From the NCBI GenBank assembly GCA_029262055.1, contig JAJDAD010000002.1:1-64000 (forward strand): a stretch of DNA of 64,000 nucleotides, read 5' to 3'. The DNA is from Candidatus Zhuqueibacterota bacterium. GTDB taxonomy: Bacteria; Zhuqueibacterota; Zhuqueibacteria; Oceanimicrobiales; Oceanimicrobiaceae. Below the pieces are notes generated by a model. It worked only from the letters and a program-made list of their open reading frames with translations. It had not been told where the DNA came from and ran no database searches. Of the stretch, positions 3,432 to 54,094 are shown piece after piece (within the stretch, counting starts at the first letter, position 1; the number at the start of each line of letters is the position of its first letter). The translations under genes were made by a program, and so were the position numbers.

Positions 3432-5639
3432 ATGCCGCGAATGCAAGTAAAAACGCTCTGCATCGCTCTTGTCTTGAGTGCTGTGTGCTACAGCTTGGGC
3501 TTGGCCTCGGATTGGCCCGGATGGCGCGGGCCGCACCAGAACGGTGTTTCAGATGAGACGCGTCTCTTGTCGAACTGGTCGCTAGATGGCGACAATCTCA
3601 TTTGGCGTTCTGATTTTGTCGGCCGGTCAACGCCAATTGTCCTAAACGGCAAAGTCTATGTCGTAGGCCGGACCGGCGCCAAGAGTGGCATGCAGCGTGT
3701 CATTTCCTGCTACGACGCAAAAGACGGCACGCTTTTGTGGGAAAACAAAGAGAACGTATTTCACACCACAGTTCCGTTTACCCGGGTTGGCTGGGCAAGC
3801 CTGGGGGCAGATCCGGAAACCGGCAACGTCTACTATCTGGGCGTTGGAGGTATGTTTACAGCCTACGATGGCGTCACTGGCAAAATCGTTTGGCAGCATT
3901 CTCTAGTTGAAGAATTTCATCGGTTTGCAGGCTACGGCGGACGCACAATCACGCCGCTGGTGGACGAGGACCTGGTGCACATTTCCTTCTGGACCTGGAG
4001 CGCCTGGGGCGAAAAGGGGCCGCCCAAACCACGGTTCTGCGCCTACGACAAGCGCACGGGCGAACTGGTCTGGGAATCGTATTTGAAGACACCTCCGCGC
4101 AATACCAATTACTCAAATCCGGTCATCAGCGTCATCAATGGCGTTCGTACTTTGATCGGCGGCGCGCCGGACGGTGCGGTTTACGCCCTGAAAGCCCGGA
4201 CCGGAGAGCAAATCTGGAAGTTCCGCCTCACTAAGGCTGCGGTGCAGTCTTCTGTCGTGGTTGATGGCGACAAAGTCTATGCAATGCACGGCAAGGAGAA
4301 TCTCGACACCGAGAGCCGTGGCCGAATTGTCTGCATCGATGCCAACGGCACCGGCGACATCACTGAAACCAATGAAGTCTGGCGCTACGATGCGGTGGAA
4401 TGCCACTATACATCGCCGCTGATTCATAAGGGCCGTTTGTATGCTGTGACCAACGCGGGTGACCTGCTCGCCATCGATGCCGCCAGCGGTGAAGAACTGT
4501 GGACGTTTAACCTGGGAACGGTCGGCAAGGGGTCGCCGGTTTGGGCCGACGACAAGATTTTTGCGACAGCGGTAAATGGTCGCTTCCATATTATTGCTCC
4601 GGGCGACGGGGGCGCGGAATCACTGGACGCAAAACAAATCGCCTTTGATGAGAAGCGCTCTGCCGAGATATACAGTTCCCCGGCCATCGCTTACGGCAGA
4701 GTCTACTTCACCACCGAGGAAGGGCTCTACTGTCTTGGTGACAAGGCAGCGGACTACAAGGTAAGCTCCGGGAAAATGCCTGTGCTGGACGAGCCGGCGC
4801 CGGATCCCGCTGCCGCGGCGACGCGCATTCAGATTGTACCGGCGGTCGAGTGGATTCATGCGGACAGTCACATCGACTTCAAAGTCCGGACATTTGACGG
4901 CAACGGGCGCAGGTTGCCCGATGCCAAGGCCGAGTTCAGTCTGCAGGGTTTGCAGGGTACTCTCGGCAATGGCCGCTTTACGCCCGATGCCGGTGCGGGC
5001 ATTCAGGCTGGTTATGTCAAGGCCAAACTCGGAGAACTGGCGTCCCCGGCGAGAGTACAGGTCTTCCCGGGTCTGCCTCTGGCCATCGATTTTGAGGGAT
5101 TCGAAGCTGACAAGAATCCGCCTTATTGGCCCAATGCTTCCAAATTTATGGTGAAAGAAATTGACGGCAATCGCGTTTTGCTGAAACCACCGTCACGGCG
5201 CGGCCTGAACCGTCACAATCTCTTTCTCGCTCCACCGGACTTGAGCAATTATACGATTCAGGCAGATATGAAAGCAGTCAAGGTCAAGCGGCGCAGTCCG
5301 GACATGGGTCTGATTTCGCATCGCTACTATCTGGATTTCATGACCAAGAAAAAGAAATTACAAATCCGCACCTGGCCGGCGGAGTTGGAACGCCTGAGTG
5401 CTGAGGTGCCTTTTGTTTGGAATCCTGAGCTTTGGTACACGATGAAAATGCGTGTGGATATCGTCGACGGCAAGGCTGTGATCAAAGGCAAGGTCTGGCC
5501 CCGGGACGAAAGCGAGCCTGCCGCGTGGAGCATCACGGCAGAGGACCCGCACCCTAATACGCATGGCAGCCCCGGATTGTATGGGGATACATCGACCAAT
5601 GTCTATTTTGATAACGTCAAGATCACGGAGAATAACTAA
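3432..5639 (+). CDS. Secreted PQQ-type beta-propeller protein with C-terminal jelly-roll-like domain
   Basis: I chose the ATG at 3432 (735 residues) because GGAGAGGGAGAG lies just upstream and the following residues form a signal peptide (MQVKTLCIALVLSAVCYSLG); an in-frame ATG at 3318 would add 38 unlikely residues. The mature protein opens with DWPGWRGPHQNG, typical of bacterial PQQ_2/BamB-like propellers. It then shows repeated blades of the type 'YALDAxTGExxW' to about residue 460. A linker with a beta-sandwich follows. The C-terminal 190 residues, starting near IDFEGFE and ending in VYFDNVKI, look like a concanavalin/3-keto-disaccharide-hydrolase-type jelly roll. It probably acts in the periplasm or on the outer surface. 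Blades of this kind usually bind proteins, and no PQQ-dehydrogenase active-site set is evident. It abuts the next propeller gene. Confidence 0.8.
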   Translation: MPRMQVKTLCIALVLSAVCYSLGLASDWPGWRGPHQNGVSDETRLLSNWSLDGDNLIWRSDFVGRSTPIVLNGKVYVVGRTGAKSGMQRVISCYDAKDGTLLWENKENVFHTTVPFTRVGWASLGADPETGNVYYLGVGGMFTAYDGVTGKIVWQHSLVEEFHRFAGYGGRTITPLVDEDLVHISFWTWSAWGEKGPPKPRFCAYDKRTGELVWESYLKTPPRNTNYSNPVISVINGVRTLIGGAPDGAVYALKARTGEQIWKFRLTKAAVQSSVVVDGDKVYAMHGKENLDTESRGRIVCIDANGTGDITETNEVWRYDAVECHYTSPLIHKGRLYAVTNAGDLLAIDAASGEELWTFNLGTVGKGSPVWADDKIFATAVNGRFHIIAPGDGGAESLDAKQIAFDEKRSAEIYSSPAIAYGRVYFTTEEGLYCLGDKAADYKVSSGKMPVLDEPAPDPAAAATRIQIVPAVEWIHADSHIDFKVRTFDGNGRRLPDAKAEFSLQGLQGTLGNGRFTPDAGAGIQAGYVKAKLGELASPARVQVFPGLPLAIDFEGFEADKNPPYWPNASKFMVKEIDGNRVLLKPPSRRGLNRHNLFLAPPDLSNYTIQADMKAVKVKRRSPDMGLISHRYYLDFMTKKKKLQIRTWPAELERLSAEVPFVWNPELWYTMKMRVDIVDGKAVIKGKVWPRDESEPAAWSITAEDPHPNTHGSPGLYGDTSTNVYFDNVKITENN

Positions 5640-16529: not shown

Positions 16530-18932
16530 ATGAGAAAAATGATGACGATCATTCTCTCCGGCATAGCCTTTCTCGGCTGTTTGGGCTCCGTGGTTGTTGC
16601 GGGGGGCTCAGGATCGGATTGGTCTACGTGGCGTGGTCCGAATATGGACGCCACGGTCGATGCTACCGGTAGCATCCCCGCTGACGCCGGACTGAAACTG
16701 CGCTGGCGCACCCCCCTGGGATCCGGCTATTCCAGTGTGTCCATCGGCGCTGAGCACGCGGTTACAATGTTTTCGGATGGAACCTTCGATAATGTGATTG
16801 CTTTTGATGCTGATAGCGGTGCAGAGCTATGGCGGCAACGGACTGACTCAACCTATGTCGGTCACCACGGTTCACATGATGGCCCGATTTCGACGCCGGC
16901 CATCGCCGGTAACGGCGTATATCTGCTCGGGCCCAGGGGACAGCTACTCGCATTTGACCTCAAGACCGGTGAGCAGCTCTGGTCTCAGGATCTGGTGGCA
17001 GAGTACGGAGCGGTCGCGCCTTTTTACGGTTTCACTACCTCGCCACTTGTCATAGACGATCTGTTGATAGTCGAGGTCAGTGGCAAGGACGGCACCATCG
17101 CGGCGTTCGAACGGGAGACGGGCAAGCTGCTTTGGAAAGCCGGAACAGACACCGTGAGCTACCAGTCACCCATGATCATCAATTCTCAGGGTCAGCAGCA
17201 GCTTATGTGTGTGGGAAATAGCTATCTCTACGGCCTGGATCCCCGGAGCGGGAAGTTGGACTGGGAGTACAAACACCAGGGTGGCAAGCGCGGGCCGGAC
17301 GCAGCGAGCATGCATCCCGTACCGGTCGGCCATAACCGTTTCTTCCTGACCTATAAACGAAATGAATCTGCGCTTATCAAGTTCAACCGTGACCCGGCAG
17401 AACATGAGATCGAAGAAGTCTGGAAGAACCGGGAAATCCGGGGTTCGTATGACACGCCCGTTTACCACCAGGGATACTTGTATGGCTACAGCAACCGTTT
17501 CCTGACCTGCGTGAATGCCGAGACCGGCGAAAGGGCCTGGCGCTCACGCCGGCCCGGAGACGGTTTTACCATTCTGGTAGACGGCCATCTGGCCGTGGTT
17601 ACCAAGAAAGGTGGCTTGCATATCATCAAGGCCAGTCCGGAGAAATATCAGGAGGTGGCGAGCCTTGACCTGTTCCCGGAGCATGCTTGGTCTCCTGCGA
17701 GTTTTGCGCAGGGCAGGTTCTATGCAAGAAGTTTCGGCGAACTGGCCGCGGTTGATATTTTGGGTCAGGGCCCGCAGGCTGCGAGCGGAGCCGAGGAAAT
17801 GGACAGCGCCACTTCGAGTTTCTCCAGGTTCCTCGCACATGTGGAGCAAGCAAATGACAAGAAGGCGGTCGTCGATGAATTTATCAAGGCACAGAAAGCC
17901 TTTCCAATTATTGAGGGCGACGATCGTGTTCACCTGGTCTATCGCGGTCAGGCAGAGGACATTTCTTTGCAAAGCGACATCTTGGGCGATCGCCGCGAGG
18001 AACCGCTCTCACGGGTTGCGGGAACTGATCTGTTCTACTATTCCACTACCCTGGAGCCGGATGCGGCCATAAGCTATCGCTTTATAAAAGACTATGAGAC
18101 CACGGTCATCGACTCCCTCAATTCGGAAAGTGCACCGTCTACCTGGGGGGAGTACTCGGTGCTGCACATGCCAAAGTGGCGCCGGCCGCCGTACATGATG
18201 GAAACCGCTGCCGGCCTGACCGGCACTATCGACAGCGTGCACTTCGAGAGCAAAATCATTGAGGGCAGCCGCAGACTTGATGTGTACCTACCGCACGGCT
18301 ATCACGGCAGCGAGCAGAGGTATCCGGTCGCTTACGTTAATGGCGGCACAGCAGCGCAAAACTGGGGGCAGATGAAAAAGACCCTGGACCAGGTCATGGG
18401 AAAAAGCGTTGCACCGGTCGTTGTGGTTTTTATCCCGCAGACCGAACCTGCACGAGGTGGGGAATTTTTCGGGGACCTGAAGGAGAAATACGTAGATATG
18501 GTGGTCACGGAGTTGGTACCCTTCATTGAGCAGACATATCGTGCCGAACCCGCTGCGAGCCATCGGGCAGCCGTCGGCATGGGGTTCGCCGGTATCCCGG
18601 CGCTTTATTCAGCATTCAAGCATCCTGATGTGTTTGGAAAAGTAGGTGCCAGGTCAGCGCTTTTGTGGAATCCGAATCTGGATTTCGTCATGCAGGGTGT
18701 TTCGCAAGCTGATGAGAATGAACTTCAGATCTACCTGGAGTGGGGCAAGTATGACTGGCGGTCGCCGCTCGAGAACTGGGGTGTGCTGAGGACACATCAG
18801 AAGTTCACCAGCCTTTTGCAGGAGAAAGGTCACTCTCCTCGCTGGGCGGTCGCGAACGATGGCCGCGGCTGGGCGAGTTTTCGCTACCGCAGTCACAAGA
18901 TTTTTGAGGCGTTATTTCCGCACGGGCGTTAG
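16530..18932 (+). CDS. Secreted beta-propeller fused to E-set and pseudo-esterase domains (paralogue)
   Basis: The 800-residue protein is a tandem paralogue of the preceding one, with shared segments such as SGYSSVSI, TMFSDxTFD, DSTYVGHxGSHxGPISTP and YGYSNRFL. The signal peptide is at residues 1-26, the propeller runs to about residue 415, and the E-set domain (about 470-560) and esterase-like domain (about 570-800) follow. The elbow reads GMGFAG, with Gly685 where the Ser should be, and the His motif reads GRGWASFR, with Arg779 for His. Both catalytic residues are lost, by substitutions different from those in the neighbour. It is probably a second exported binding protein. Confidence 0.85.
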   Translation: MRKMMTIILSGIAFLGCLGSVVVAGGSGSDWSTWRGPNMDATVDATGSIPADAGLKLRWRTPLGSGYSSVSIGAEHAVTMFSDGTFDNVIAFDADSGAELWRQRTDSTYVGHHGSHDGPISTPAIAGNGVYLLGPRGQLLAFDLKTGEQLWSQDLVAEYGAVAPFYGFTTSPLVIDDLLIVEVSGKDGTIAAFERETGKLLWKAGTDTVSYQSPMIINSQGQQQLMCVGNSYLYGLDPRSGKLDWEYKHQGGKRGPDAASMHPVPVGHNRFFLTYKRNESALIKFNRDPAEHEIEEVWKNREIRGSYDTPVYHQGYLYGYSNRFLTCVNAETGERAWRSRRPGDGFTILVDGHLAVVTKKGGLHIIKASPEKYQEVASLDLFPEHAWSPASFAQGRFYARSFGELAAVDILGQGPQAASGAEEMDSATSSFSRFLAHVEQANDKKAVVDEFIKAQKAFPIIEGDDRVHLVYRGQAEDISLQSDILGDRREEPLSRVAGTDLFYYSTTLEPDAAISYRFIKDYETTVIDSLNSESAPSTWGEYSVLHMPKWRRPPYMMETAAGLTGTIDSVHFESKIIEGSRRLDVYLPHGYHGSEQRYPVAYVNGGTAAQNWGQMKKTLDQVMGKSVAPVVVVFIPQTEPARGGEFFGDLKEKYVDMVVTELVPFIEQTYRAEPAASHRAAVGMGFAGIPALYSAFKHPDVFGKVGARSALLWNPNLDFVMQGVSQADENELQIYLEWGKYDWRSPLENWGVLRTHQKFTSLLQEKGHSPRWAVANDGRGWASFRYRSHKIFEALFPHGR

Positions 18933-38649: not shown

Positions 38650-39777
38650 TTATCCTCCTCTTTTCTTACTTTTCTTGCTAAGCTCGTTCTCGCCACTAAT
38701 CGCCTGTATGAGACCTCGTATATGCGTATCCAGGTATTTGTACGTTTTTTCGTATGCAGTGTGGATTTCTTCTTCTGATCCTGTTGCTTTTGACGGGTCT
38801 TTAATGTTCCAACGAATCCGTACCGTCTTAGACGGTGGCGGTGGAAAGGCTTCTTCAGCCTCTTTACAGAGGGTGACGATAGCTGTGTAATCACCCAAAT
38901 TCAATGTCTGGTGCAAATATCTGGACGTTTGCTTTGAAATGTCAATCCCTTTTTCCGCCATAAACTTTATGGTTTGCGGATCGATTGGTTTGGGTGAAAG
39001 GCCTGCGCTGCTGAACTTGAATCCTTTGACGCCGAGTGAATTGGCTATTCCTTCTGCAACCTGGCCTCGACATGAATCGCGCTCATCGACAAAGAGAATG
39101 CGTACAACATCCTTGCCTTCATGCTTGATATTCTCACCGGTGCACATGTAAAGCACTTCTTCACAAATGTTGGTGGCTTGATCCGCAACTCTTTCAAATC
39201 GGCTGGCTATGATCATCAAAGGCGGCAGGACTTCAGAAGGCATCTTACGCTCATCCCGAAGGGTCACCAATTCGTTGTGAATTTCATAACGAACTGCATC
39301 AACTTGCTTCTCCAGGTCCAGGGTTGATTTCGCAAGCTCTGGATTTTCTTCTTCAAATGCGAGAAGTGCGTTGCGCAGCATCGGGATGGACAAATTTGCG
39401 ATATCAGAGAATTTTTCGTAGGAGGGTTGCGGCTCGACTTCGCTTAACTTGAGAACTTGACGGGCAACGCTCTCTGCATAGTCACCGACTCGTTCAAGTT
39501 CGTTATTGATTTTGATCACGGAATAGACAAATCGCAAATGGCTGCCGGCCGGCTGCTGCCGCACCAGGAACTCAAGGCAGAGTCCATCCAATTCCTTTTC
39601 CAATTCATCAATTTCACGATCCCGAAGAATCACTGCATAGGCAGCTTCCTGATTCATCTCCACAAGGGCGTTTAAGCTGTTGCTGACAGCTTGCTCCGCC
39701 AAGGATCCCATCTTTATGACCTTGTCACGAATTTCAGTGATATCTTTTTGTAAAGTCTTTTCTAAACGAGAGGGCAT
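38650..39777 (-). CDS. phoU: PhoU fused to a LMW-phosphatase/ArsC-like domain lacking the catalytic Cys
   Basis: The 375-residue protein joins two domains. Residues 5-218 are a PhoU with both helix bundles and the metal-binding motifs NNELERVGDYAESVA (near 91) and FERVADQATNICEE (near 194). Residues 224-360 match arsenate reductase/low-molecular-weight tyrosine phosphatase: RILFVDERDSCRGQVAEG and IRWNIKDPSKATG near 327. In that family the nucleophile is the first Cys of the CX5R loop. Here it is Asp231, while the loop's Cys236 and Arg237 and the general-acid Asp327 remain. The domain may therefore bind phosphate or a phosphoryl group without catalysis, giving PhoU a sensor. It is first in the pst operon. 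Confidence 0.85.
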   Translation of the reverse strand: MPSRLEKTLQKDITEIRDKVIKMGSLAEQAVSNSLNALVEMNQEAAYAVILRDREIDELEKELDGLCLEFLVRQQPAGSHLRFVYSVIKINNELERVGDYAESVARQVLKLSEVEPQPSYEKFSDIANLSIPMLRNALLAFEEENPELAKSTLDLEKQVDAVRYEIHNELVTLRDERKMPSEVLPPLMIIASRFERVADQATNICEEVLYMCTGENIKHEGKDVVRILFVDERDSCRGQVAEGIANSLGVKGFKFSSAGLSPKPIDPQTIKFMAEKGIDISKQTSRYLHQTLNLGDYTAIVTLCKEAEEAFPPPPSKTVRIRWNIKDPSKATGSEEEIHTAYEKTYKYLDTHIRGLIQAISGENELSKKSKKRGG

Positions 39778-46507: not shown

Positions 46508-47875
46508 TCAATATTTAGTGGCTTGTGCCCTTACTGCACCACAATCACACTCGCAGACAGACATTTGCCCCGGTAAAGTGGTTGTCCATTGCCCGTTCCA
46601 ACCACCGTAGTCCTGGCAGACGTCGGGGCATTCTTGTTGGGCGTCACTGTTGCTCCAGATCGGACCGGCCTCGATATCGCAGTAGCATTGGGCATCGGCC
46701 AGCACCATACTCTTAATGTTTGATTTCATACTTTGCAGCCAAGTACGCGAATCTTTTCCCAGGTTGAAAAGGATCGGTTGCACGCCGGTGACCATCGCAT
46801 ACATCTGTTTGTATATCGGGAAGTCTGCGCCAAGTTGCTGGAAGACCGTATGCCGCACAGGCATCAAATACTGGGGCCCGTTCGATCCGTCTGCTCCGAA
46901 ACATTGCACGATAACGTCGGTCGAGGTGATCAGGTTAGCGAGGGCGATTGCCAGGGGTGTATTTCCTCGACTTTGTGTTGCCGGGTGAATGCCGACCAGA
47001 TCGCCGTAAAACAACGGTCTTTTGTTGCCGTCAGCATTGTCGGACCAGGGCATGGGCTTCATAGCAATGTTGTTGAGCTGCGTTGGCGCCAACTCCGACA
47101 TCGATTCCGTAAAACCAACATAAGCTCGGCCAACCCCCTGGTTGAACCAATCGGCGCGCTGATAGGCAGCCCCTTCATATAAGGCATTTTTGAAACTGGA
47201 GGTAGCCAGGGCAGAGCGCAGATAAGAAATGGCGGTTTTGTCGACTTGTCCAGGATTCTGCGGCAATGAGACGGGAAACTGGTTCAGGCGCTCATGTACG
47301 CTTTCGACGTAATTGCACGCGTTAGTCGTGCCGCCGGAGAAGTCCAGCATCAGCCCGACGTCCTTTTCAGGCGTTTCCCCATAATAGACACAACTGCCGA
47401 TGGCTGAGGTGACGTCCTGCAGGGTGTTGGCATTGGCCAGGGCGGCATCGGTTTTATGATAGAACAAGATGCTGCCGCATCCCAACTGCGGCATGGCATA
47501 AACAAGATTGTTTGCCACGATGCCTGTGGCCGCGTAGTCGAGCAGGTCGTCAAATTCATTAACCCGGCTCTTCGGTAAGGCAGTCAGCCAGTTCCGGGAT
47601 TTGAAATAATCCAGAAAAATGGCATCAAAAACGTAGACATCAAAGCTGGCATCCGGGTTGGTGGAATAACCGCCGTCCCAGCCATCGACCCACTCTATGC
47701 TCACGTCAGGCTGGACTCTCTGCCATTCCGCAGCGATCACCTTTTTGAATTGCTCCAGCCTTGGAACATATGGATAGAGCGCGACTTTCAGAGACTTTGA
47801 CAGAGCTTCTTCGGGTACAAAGAGCAGGCAGGTAAATACAAGCAAGCAGGAATGAAACATTCTCCACATCTTCAT
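46508..47875 (-). CDS. Secreted thiaminase I with C-terminal mannan-binding-lectin-like domain
   Basis: The 455-residue protein has a signal peptide to about residue 26. Residues 28-395 match thiaminase I, which has a periplasmic-binding-protein fold: LKVALYPYVPRLEQF, DVYVFDAIFLDYF, GGTTNACNYVESV, WFNQGVGRAYVGFTESM and SRTWLQSMK. The catalytic Cys is probably Cys133 in MPQLGCGSILFYHK, and the general base Glu257 in FTESMS. It cleaves thiamine at the methylene bridge and transfers the pyrimidine to a nucleophile. The tail (about 398-448) has the pattern AGPIWSNSDAQ...CP..C...WNGQWTTTLPGQMSVCEC, as in the MVL mannan-binding lectin domain. I infer secretion and glycan targeting. Confidence 0.82.
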   Translation of the reverse strand: MKMWRMFHSCLLVFTCLLFVPEEALSKSLKVALYPYVPRLEQFKKVIAAEWQRVQPDVSIEWVDGWDGGYSTNPDASFDVYVFDAIFLDYFKSRNWLTALPKSRVNEFDDLLDYAATGIVANNLVYAMPQLGCGSILFYHKTDAALANANTLQDVTSAIGSCVYYGETPEKDVGLMLDFSGGTTNACNYVESVHERLNQFPVSLPQNPGQVDKTAISYLRSALATSSFKNALYEGAAYQRADWFNQGVGRAYVGFTESMSELAPTQLNNIAMKPMPWSDNADGNKRPLFYGDLVGIHPATQSRGNTPLAIALANLITSTDVIVQCFGADGSNGPQYLMPVRHTVFQQLGADFPIYKQMYAMVTGVQPILFNLGKDSRTWLQSMKSNIKSMVLADAQCYCDIEAGPIWSNSDAQQECPDVCQDYGGWNGQWTTTLPGQMSVCECDCGAVRAQATKY

Positions 47876-47998
47876 TAGAGGCCTCCCATTTTGTTCTCAT
47901 TCTTATCAAAGGCACAAAGTAATTGCGTCATGCACTCATCTTTCATGCCTCATTGATTCTCGATAAGTATTCCGCGCACGCCTGGTTCGAGCTTGCAT

Positions 47999-51448: not shown

Positions 51449-54094
51449 CTAATTGAGGCAGGCGTCACATACGAACTTTACATTGGTGTTATTCATCAGC
51501 CAGTAAGCCTGACAGTTGGCGCATGCGGTAGGAGAGCGGTGTTCGCACTCCATGCAGATTTCGGTATTGGGACAGGAGCCATGGGCGAAGTAGGCCTGCG
51601 GCTCCACCTGGTTTCCGCAGGACTCGCAGACCAGGTAGACTTTATCCAGCGCTTGCCGTACTTTGCTCTGATTTTGCAGGGTTTCCAGGCGGGCGGGATC
51701 GACTGGTGCCGTTTCCATGGTGCGGGCATATTCCAGGATTGCCTGCAATTGTCCATCAGCGTGGATGCCGGCTTCTTGTAAGACCTTGTGCGCCTGGCCG
51801 CTCCCCAGGTAGTGGTGCTCCCTGAAAGGATGCAGCGTCCGCCTGAGGCCTTGATTGGAGCGCACCCAGCGTTGCATGGTTGGCAGAGTAAAGTCCGTGA
51901 TCCCCATTGCTTCCTGCGTAAGGCTTTCCGGAAAGATGAACTCCTGTTCCTCCAGCGGCAAGCGATTGAACAGCTCCGCACTCGATACATAAAAGACGTT
52001 CAGGTTGAGACCTTTTTGATCAAGTTGCGACAGCACTTCCTGCACAAAAGCGGTTGCCACGCCGTTGCCTTGCAGCACGATGGTGCCACTCTGCTGGTGC
52101 GCGGTCGGATCTGCTCGCCTGATGGCGTACACGCCTTTGATGGCTTCAGCGGGATCTGGAAGGCCCAGCTCCTTGCGGTCGACCAGAATGTCGGCGGGAC
52201 GGGTTACGAAGGGGGAGAGTACCGCCGGTCGCGTCCGCAATGCGACCAGCATCATGGGCCAGAGTTCGCGGGCGTCCCACGGCGTCAAAGTGATCAAAAC
52301 ATTATGCGGAAAGTTTTCCTGCATCAGTTGCAGCACTTGCGGGTCGGCATGCGTCGGACCATCTTCCCCGGTCTTGGCGCCTGCGTGGGCGTTGACCATG
52401 ATCCAGGTCTTGTACGGCTCCCCGGTCACAAATTCACGATTCTGCTGACCGATTCCGTGCAGCCTGGCCGCCACATGCTCCAATGCTCCGATGAAAGCGC
52501 CATAGGATGAGGTCAGACCAATGTGTTCACCGAACGTGGAGAGACCAGCCATAAAGGCGCCCATGGCGTCTTCGCAAATACCGCCGACTGCGATGAGGCG
52601 GGAATCAGGATTGGACGCAGTGTGGAGCAGCCCTTCAGGAAAACCCTTGTTGAGAACCGATACGCTGGTGGAGTTGAGCAAATCCGCCGCACTGCCGATG
52701 ATGGCTCCGTTAGTTTCCTGGTTTAGAACATGCAGGACTTCGCCGAGAACACCGCGTAATGTCACGGAATCGCCCGGATTGAGCTGTAGGGACTCCGGCA
52801 CTTTGGTCGTCTGAAGCTTGCTCTTTTGGTCGTACAGTTTCTGCAGGTGGGGTTTGTTCTCATGCGCGGTGTGGGCGCGTTTCTGTAAACGTCGTTGTGC
52901 CTTTAGGATGTGATTGCAGGCAAACATGGCGTATTCTTTGTTGATTTCCAGCACCCGCCGTACCAGCATCAGGGTTTCAAAGAAAATCTCTTCCACCGCT
53001 GCCGGCGTCGGGTCGCCGTTAAAACGCGGCATGTTGACGCTAAACTTGTTTTCAAATGGCCGGCATGCTTCGTAAAAACCGTCGGAGCAAAACTTGTGTC
53101 CGCCACCGTGCGACGCCTTGCCTTCCACGCCATACTTCCACCCCTTGACCGTTCGGTAGATAACTGCGGTGGGTTGGCCATTGTCGCTGGAGTTGGCCAG
53201 CATTTGCGCAGCGACCACTTGTTGAAAATCAAAACCGTTCGGGACAAAAATCACGTTCCAGTCATGACAGTAGCAGAGTTCGATCGGATCCCACTGCACA
53301 TAATCGCCAGCATCCGAGCCCTCGCGACAGACGCGGTCCGAATCAATCGAAGCCTGGTTCCAGTCCAGGTGTAACACGGCATTGTTGATTCCGGCAGAAG
53401 CCGCCGCCGCCAAGGCCTCATGAACGCGGCCGGGTGTCATGCCGCCTTCCCCTTCGAGAATGTGGACTTTCGGCACATCGGACCGGAAAATATCCAACTT
53501 TCCGAACGCAAGTCCCAGTGCAGCCGGAAACCCAACGCCGCTGGCCCCGGTTGCCAGCGGCACAAATGGCGTGGCTGGAGTAGGGTGGCCATCAAGTGTT
53601 TTCGCGTTCATTTCCTTAAAAAACGGCGTGTCGTTGGTCGGATTTCGGCGGAATCCAAGCAGGTCTTCCAGACGCAGTTGTTTATCAACCTCCGGAAGAA
53701 AATCCGGTTTGCCAACCCTGATCAATTCATTGCGCAGGGCCCACATGGCGTACAGCCCCATTGCTTTATGTCCTGCAGCGTAAACCAGGGAGTCCGCCGC
53801 TGCCAGGTCCGGGTCTGAAAAATCGTAGTCCATATTCATATAAAGTAGACTTTCGACGATGCGCCCCGATGAAATACTGCCTCCGGGATGCCCCGATGTC
53901 GGGACATAATTGAAGAGCACGGCGCACAGCGTCCGGTAGACGAGGTCGATTCCCTCCAGGTTCATGCGCTCGCTTCGGTCTAATTTGAATCGAGTCTTCT
54001 TAAGCACATCCGCTATATCGAAGTAGGCCGCTCTGCGCGGACCGAAGGTCATCTTGTGTGACGGTAACGCCGAAAAACGGAGGTCGGGTTTCAT
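51449..54094 (-). CDS. Transketolase-like TPP enzyme with Cys-rich zinc-ribbon-like tail
   Basis: The 881-residue protein has the transketolase/dehydrogenase E1 architecture. TSGHPGGSISS (near residue 66), AGHKAMGLYAMW and GEGGMTPGRVHEALAAAASAGINNAVLHLDWNQAS form the TPP/metal half; the usual GDG is GEG. RGVLGEVLHVLNQE, GGICEDAMGAFMAGLSTFG with the catalytic Glu, and DGPTHADPQVLQLM form the pyrimidine half. The last about 60 residues hold nine Cys in four CxxC pairs (CESC, CMEC, CANC, CDAC), which suggests two zinc ribbons not normally found in transketolases. It moves two-carbon units or decarboxylates a 2-oxo acid. The substrate is unclear. Confidence 0.82.
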   Translation of the reverse strand: MKPDLRFSALPSHKMTFGPRRAAYFDIADVLKKTRFKLDRSERMNLEGIDLVYRTLCAVLFNYVPTSGHPGGSISSGRIVESLLYMNMDYDFSDPDLAAADSLVYAAGHKAMGLYAMWALRNELIRVGKPDFLPEVDKQLRLEDLLGFRRNPTNDTPFFKEMNAKTLDGHPTPATPFVPLATGASGVGFPAALGLAFGKLDIFRSDVPKVHILEGEGGMTPGRVHEALAAAASAGINNAVLHLDWNQASIDSDRVCREGSDAGDYVQWDPIELCYCHDWNVIFVPNGFDFQQVVAAQMLANSSDNGQPTAVIYRTVKGWKYGVEGKASHGGGHKFCSDGFYEACRPFENKFSVNMPRFNGDPTPAAVEEIFFETLMLVRRVLEINKEYAMFACNHILKAQRRLQKRAHTAHENKPHLQKLYDQKSKLQTTKVPESLQLNPGDSVTLRGVLGEVLHVLNQETNGAIIGSAADLLNSTSVSVLNKGFPEGLLHTASNPDSRLIAVGGICEDAMGAFMAGLSTFGEHIGLTSSYGAFIGALEHVAARLHGIGQQNREFVTGEPYKTWIMVNAHAGAKTGEDGPTHADPQVLQLMQENFPHNVLITLTPWDARELWPMMLVALRTRPAVLSPFVTRPADILVDRKELGLPDPAEAIKGVYAIRRADPTAHQQSGTIVLQGNGVATAFVQEVLSQLDQKGLNLNVFYVSSAELFNRLPLEEQEFIFPESLTQEAMGITDFTLPTMQRWVRSNQGLRRTLHPFREHHYLGSGQAHKVLQEAGIHADGQLQAILEYARTMETAPVDPARLETLQNQSKVRQALDKVYLVCESCGNQVEPQAYFAHGSCPNTEICMECEHRSPTACANCQAYWLMNNTNVKFVCDACLN

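Follow-up and report, generated by a model that had tools for sequence, protein, structure and literature searches.

A predicted exported thiaminase I fused to a single MVL-like repeat in Candidatus Zhuqueibacterota and in four distantly related bacteria

The locus and its product

The window analyzed here is the 64,000-nucleotide stretch at positions 1 to 64,000 of contig JAJDAD010000002.1 (assembly GCA_029262055.1) of a Candidatus Zhuqueibacterota bacterium. Its minus strand contains an open reading frame with the ATG at 47875 and a stop codon ending at 46508, which encodes a putative exported thiaminase I with a C-terminal tail resembling the Microcystis viridis lectin MVL (Table 1). A first-pass annotation had placed the gene at exactly these coordinates but had left the strand unstated, and the motifs quoted there, namely an export-type N-terminus, Cys133, Glu257, AGPIWSNSDAQ and WNGQWTTTLPGQMSVCEC, are all present. 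The composition of the gene is ordinary for the region (GC 0.52, GC3 0.61).

The N-terminus, MKMWRMFHSCLLVFTCLLFVPEEALS, is of the export type as judged by eye, and hydrophobic N-termini are also found in all four related fusions described below. A Gram-negative signal peptide by itself delivers a protein to the periplasm only. Secretin homologues exist in the host, and none of them passes the cut-off for GspD of type II secretion. The protein is predicted from these features to be exported over the inner membrane, and passage beyond the outer membrane or release from the cell may follow.

Table 1. Features of the thiaminase I–MVL gene, in positions of the window
Feature	Position	Strand	Basis
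Whole gene, 455 aa, predicted exported thiaminase I with C-terminal MVL-like tail	46508..47875	-	ORF translation and domain scans
Shine-Dalgarno GGGAGG, 6 nt before ATG	47882..47887	-	sequence
Probable signal peptide, residues 1-25, without canonical lipobox	47801..47875	-	sequence, judged by eye
Thiaminase I catalytic domain (TIGR04541, residues 24-381)	46733..47806	-	HMM; predicted fold against 4kys, TMt 0.93
Cys133, predicted catalytic nucleophile	47477..47479	-	aligned with serine at the 4KYS catalytic-Cys position
Cys162, candidate partner of a tail cysteine	47390..47392	-	13-sequence comparison
Glu257, predicted activating base	47105..47107	-	alignment with 4KYS; 13-sequence comparison
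Cys-rich tail, residues 397-445, seven invariant Cys (397, 399, 416, 420, 441, 443, 445), W426/W430 motif	46541..46687	-	alignments
MVL domain match (PF12151, residues 409-443)	46547..46651	-	Pfam; best predicted-fold match 1zhq

The thiaminase I domain

The catalytic part matches the TIGR04541 equivalog model with an E-value of 3.7e-108 and 361.8 bits against a cut-off of 175, covering positions 25-381 of the 381-position profile, and PF22141 is matched in the same protein (E 2.9e-42). The closest solved relatives by sequence are 4KYS and 2THI for thiaminase I and 1ZHQ for MVL. An AlphaFold2 model built from seven sequences has a mean pLDDT of 81.5; its top solved fold is 4KYS (TM 0.93 over the target, rmsd 2.0), and the periplasmic-binding-protein-like fold of 2THI and 4KYS is present in this predicted model. 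The serine in the 4KYS crystal, with which Cys133 aligns, is that of the C143S mutant. Cys133 and Glu257 do not vary among the 13 thiaminase-like proteins compared, five fused and eight unfused, and neither do Tyr70, Asp84 and Asp292, which align with active-site positions. In CcThi1, from a myxobacterium, mutation of both counterparts of Cys133 and Glu257 (C148A/E269A) abolishes all activity (PMC10499793). The identity as a thiaminase I, already proposed in the first-pass annotation, is borne out by a TIGR04541 score far above the cut-off, by the predicted fold and by the alignment of Cys133 and Glu257, and thiaminase activity of the window protein is likely, as judged from its sequence.

The window protein therefore shares with thiaminase I (thiamine pyridinylase, BcmE; TIGR04541; 2THI, 3THI, 4KYS) the full-length catalytic domain, the Cys/Glu pair and the predicted fold, and it is 36% identical to the Paenibacillus thiaminolyticus enzyme (2THI). 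Unlike BcmE, it has a C-terminal MVL tail and Cys162 in addition, and its gene lies outside any bacimethrin or thiamine operon, with no TPP riboswitch within the window.

The MVL-like tail

The proposal of an MVL-like Cys-rich tail is upheld by the HMM search, in which PF12151 is matched with an E-value of 1e-14 and 54.7 bits against a gathering cut-off of 25, a score comparable to those of stand-alone cyanobacterial MVLs (about 55). The 63-residue C-terminus alone matches both repeats of the solved MVL (E 8.3e-20), and MVL is the sole PDB match of a profile built from the five fused tails. When folded by itself, the tail yields a strand-helix-strand-strand model (pLDDT 78, pTM 0.62) whose best PDB match is 1zhq (probability 1.00, TMq 0.62, 1.9 Å over 47 columns, E 1.6e-3, 42% identity), and the further fold matches are weak, with a probability of 0.25 or less.

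The solved MVL consists of two repeats and forms a homodimer, and its minimal ligand is the Man-Man-GlcNAc-GlcNAc core of oligomannosides (PMC3407925). The tail resembles MVL (PF12151; 1ZHQ, 1ZHS) in the beta-alpha-beta-beta repeat and in the AGP.WSN.DAQ and GQWTT...MSV motifs, whereas it differs in having one repeat instead of two in tandem, in being fused to an enzyme and in carrying seven cysteines. Since the Pfam unit of PF12151 is one repeat, the single copy affects the likeness to the MVL lectin and not the domain membership. The matched repeats of M. viridis MVL have no cysteine at the seven tail positions, and stand-alone cyanobacterial MVLs have two cysteines per repeat as against seven in the fused tails.

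Recurrence, phylogeny and spread

A scan of the genomes of 84,980 species with two peptide patterns, for which the fusion count is a lower bound, returned seven thiaminase relatives, four of them with the same tail. Two of these four fusions come from metagenome-assembled genomes (MAGs), one of Phycisphaerae in the Planctomycetota (L008) and one of Desulfovibrio in the Desulfovibrionaceae (L009), and two from the cyanobacteria Crocosphaera (L010) and Symploca (L011). Because four independent assemblies show the same architecture, the fusion is not an assembly artefact. All four lie above the TIGR04541 cut-off, and they match PF12151 at E-values of 1.2e-7 to 2.5e-4 with 21.4-32 bits, near or below the cut-off of 25. 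They share with the window protein the domain order, the catalytic residues, Cys162 and the seven tail cysteines at 39-49% identity, but none of their tails comes as close to MVL as the window tail (54.7 bits as compared with 21-32), which alone has the AGPIW tryptophan. Thus both MVL motif tryptophans are kept in the window tail, including that of AGPxW, which is replaced in the other four of the five fusions; the W-N-x-Q-W core is common to all five tails.

A tree was built from the catalytic part with the tails removed. The five fusions fall on one side of a single branch with a support of 75/73 when the long Rhodococcus fascians branch is included and 94/96 when it is left out, and the window protein groups with the Phycisphaerae and Desulfovibrio proteins (99-100/99). 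None of the five fusion genomes encodes an MVL domain other than that of the fusion tail. This, together with the grouping of the fusions in the tree, suggests that the two domains travel together. At the thresholds used, a thiaminase or MVL domain occurs in one of 82 genomes of the window's phylum, namely the window's own, and neither domain was found in the other 81. No other strong thiaminase match was found among 343 genomes of the phylum of the Phycisphaerae fusion and 345 of that of the Desulfovibrio fusion, and Crocosphaera alone passes the thiaminase cut-off among 339 genomes of its phylum. The simplest reading of these sequence comparisons, and a likely one, is that the two domains were fused once and that the gene then spread horizontally.

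The fusion loci have no shared neighbourhood, and the flanking genes differ in every one of them. Only short imperfect repeats and ordinary GC content were seen around the window gene, and no mobile element is visible there. Carriage by phages is unsupported, no match having appeared in phage records or in two scans of viral contigs, and PADLOC identified no known phage-defence gene. A plasmid search with the whole protein returned only unfused relatives (R. fascians bcmE and a Bradyrhizobium protein), and the same search with the tail alone gave no match. No description of a thiaminase I–MVL fusion was found in the literature searched, which was mostly open-access, suggesting that the fusion is so far undescribed there.

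Cysteines and a possible link between enzyme and tail

Cys162 is found in all five fused thiaminases, whereas each of the eight unfused relatives lacks it, and the seven tail cysteines are common to the five fusions. The cysteines of the Crocosphaera fusion are limited to the catalytic one, the equivalent of Cys162 and the seven of the tail. The eight non-catalytic cysteines would allow four disulfides, and one of these probably links Cys162 of the enzyme to the tail, so that a single lectin repeat would be disulfide-locked to its catalytic partner. Since the five fusions are kin, this pattern counts as one evolutionary observation and not as five. The first-pass annotation overlooked the fusion-specific Cys162 and the recurrence in other phyla as well as the strand.

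The AGPxW tryptophan is missing from four fusions, whose PF12151 scores are also near or below the cut-off, so sugar binding may not be conserved, and some or all of the tails may now serve as structural caps. On this explanation, an MVL repeat would have lost its sugar binding and become a disulfide-stabilised cap or a dimerisation module, and the protein would be a soluble exported thiaminase I. The invariants of the five tails are mainly the seven cysteines and W-N-x-Q-W, and the restriction of Cys162 to the fused enzymes fits a structural lock. However, the window tail is a full-strength MVL match with both motif tryptophans, and the persistence of the W-N-x-Q-W core in every tail also speaks against a purely structural module, so the explanation appears rather doubtful.

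Genomic context and the thiamine pathway of the host

Thiaminase I is encoded in bacimethrin operons of paenibacilli and Clostridium botulinum, and in paenibacilli it is accompanied there by thiD, thiE and thiM and by a TPP riboswitch (PMC5627462). The window gene does not belong to such an operon of the BcmE type: no thiamine or bacimethrin gene was found among the 29 window ORFs scanned with Pfam, and the window gave no Rfam match and no THI-box pattern. Rfam found no TPP riboswitch in the loci of the relatives either, a search without a positive control since the Paenibacillus loci may stop short of the known riboswitch. The checks of the host thiamine pathway covered ThiC and TenA; ThiC is present, so the host can probably make the pyrimidine half itself, and TenA was not found, which disfavours salvage of the TenA type.

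These results weaken the pyrimidine scavenging that the first-pass annotation had offered as one possible role. Salvage, in which environmental or damaged thiamine would be broken down and its pyrimidine and thiazole parts re-used by the host, has a precedent in the paenibacilli operon, but neither such an operon nor a riboswitch accompanies the window gene, ThiC is present while TenA was not found, and the lectin tail would have no obvious use, which makes this role improbable. Another conceivable role is extracellular detoxification of thiamine antivitamins, such as methoxythiamine, oxythiamine and bacimethrin products. Antivitamins do enter fresh water, Microcystis being one source (PMC12345177), but no antivitamin genes are present among the neighbours checked, and we consider detoxification very improbable.

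A glycan-anchored thiamine-depleting exoenzyme

Among functional precedents, the nearest is a thiaminase I that myxobacteria carry on vesicles; it starves Phytophthora, a thiamine auxotroph, and is inert as the C148A/E269A mutant (PMC10499793). The window protein resembles CcThi1 and MxThi1 in its catalytic pair and in being a thiaminase I with predicted export; unlike it, these enzymes are lipoproteins on outer membrane vesicles and are reported to be only 18-19% identical to 2THI and 4KYS, as compared with 36% to 2THI for the window protein, and their description, on which this comparison is based, mentions no lectin tail (PMC10499793). Starvation of a thiamine-auxotrophic oomycete was demonstrated for CcThi1 and MxThi1 (PMC10499793) and may by analogy extend to the window protein.

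This precedent and the ligand of MVL together lead to the best reading, to which we give a probability of about 45%: a thiamine-depleting exoenzyme that is anchored to glycans and perhaps directed at the eukaryotic N-glycan core. It builds on both domains, the intact catalytic residues, the conserved fusion, the cysteine pattern and the ThiC of the host, as seen in sequence and predicted structure. After crossing the inner membrane, the protein would destroy thiamine by the thiaminase I mechanism, in which Cys133, activated by Glu257, would displace the thiazole, and the pyrimidine would be passed to another nucleophile. The tail, a single MVL repeat rich in disulfides for which Cys162 is the probable tie to the enzyme, would hold the enzyme on mannose-containing glycans, most likely on the Man-GlcNAc core of eukaryotic N-glycoproteins. 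A neighbour that depends on thiamine would then lose the vitamin at its surface, while ThiC provides the producer with thiamine pyrimidine of its own. The Man-Man-GlcNAc-GlcNAc core is typical of eukaryotic glycoproteins, and so a eukaryote is possibly the target. Points against this reading are the single MVL repeat, where the solved lectin has two and dimerises, and a signal peptide that would take the protein only as far as the periplasm; nor is the host known to associate with fungi or algae. The glycan-targeted, neighbour-starving exoenzyme of the first-pass annotation therefore stands as the most plausible reading, and its sugar-binding part is tempered by the loss of the AGPxW tryptophan from the four other fusions.

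The glycan to which the tail would bind could instead be the producer's own. Mannose-containing exopolysaccharides are made by many bacteria, and the tail might anchor the enzyme to the surface or extracellular matrix of the producer for defence or nutrient control. Localisation is indeed a theme among these enzymes, since the unfused myxobacterial enzyme is kept near by its lipoprotein anchor in vesicles (PMC10499793). However, the minimal ligand of MVL is the GlcNAc-containing N-glycan core and not simple mannan (PMC3407925), and there is no second MVL in the window genome and none in its relatives, making self-anchoring unlikely.

The biological role of bacterial thiaminase I is debated and has been called enigmatic (PMC5627462). 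With a lectin tail that accompanies the enzyme through at least four phyla, the purpose of thiaminase would become directly testable: binding of the tail to the eukaryotic N-glycan core would mean that eukaryotes are the target. A glycan-anchored exoenzyme would add a targeting step to the known antagonism by vitamin starvation, and it could be relevant to the way in which thiamine runs short locally in aquatic and soil communities. The same two-part protein in four other distantly related bacteria suggests a widely transferred way of placing vitamin destruction on sugar-coated surfaces. A more specific version, put forward only tentatively, is that the fusions form a horizontally spread family of glycan-homing antivitamin exoenzymes, in which thiaminase I is disulfide-locked to one MVL repeat with the eukaryotic N-glycan core as its ligand, and with which unrelated bacteria starve eukaryotic neighbours of vitamin B1 at their surface.

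Other observations

A broken second thiaminase copy lies directly upstream of the intact Desulfovibrio fusion, at about 5001-5250 of locus L009 (G083:C10:54676-54924); it covers profile positions 225-307 with a TGA inside and is a trace of tandem duplication. Divergent thiaminase-like proteins that keep the catalytic Cys and Glu were seen on a Bradyrhizobium plasmid (L032, 5001-6035), where the protein is annotated merely as an extracellular solute-binding protein, and at L014 and L020-L022, which are below the TIGR04541 cut-off where scanned; together they form a separate tail-less branch. A cyanobacterial two-repeat MVL (L027/L029, G155:C1:275529-275801) looks secreted and has two cysteines per repeat, while the matched stretches of M. 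viridis MVL have none.

Three other ORFs of the window were also noted. At 38650-39777 on the minus strand, PhoU is fused to a low-molecular-weight phosphatase domain (LMWPc) and heads a phosphate-transporter-like gene set. The minus strand also encodes, at 51449-54094, a transketolase-like protein of 881 residues whose C-terminus is Cys-rich and resembles a zinc ribbon, and an 800-residue ORF at 16530-18932 on the plus strand combines a PQQ beta-propeller with a putative esterase domain.
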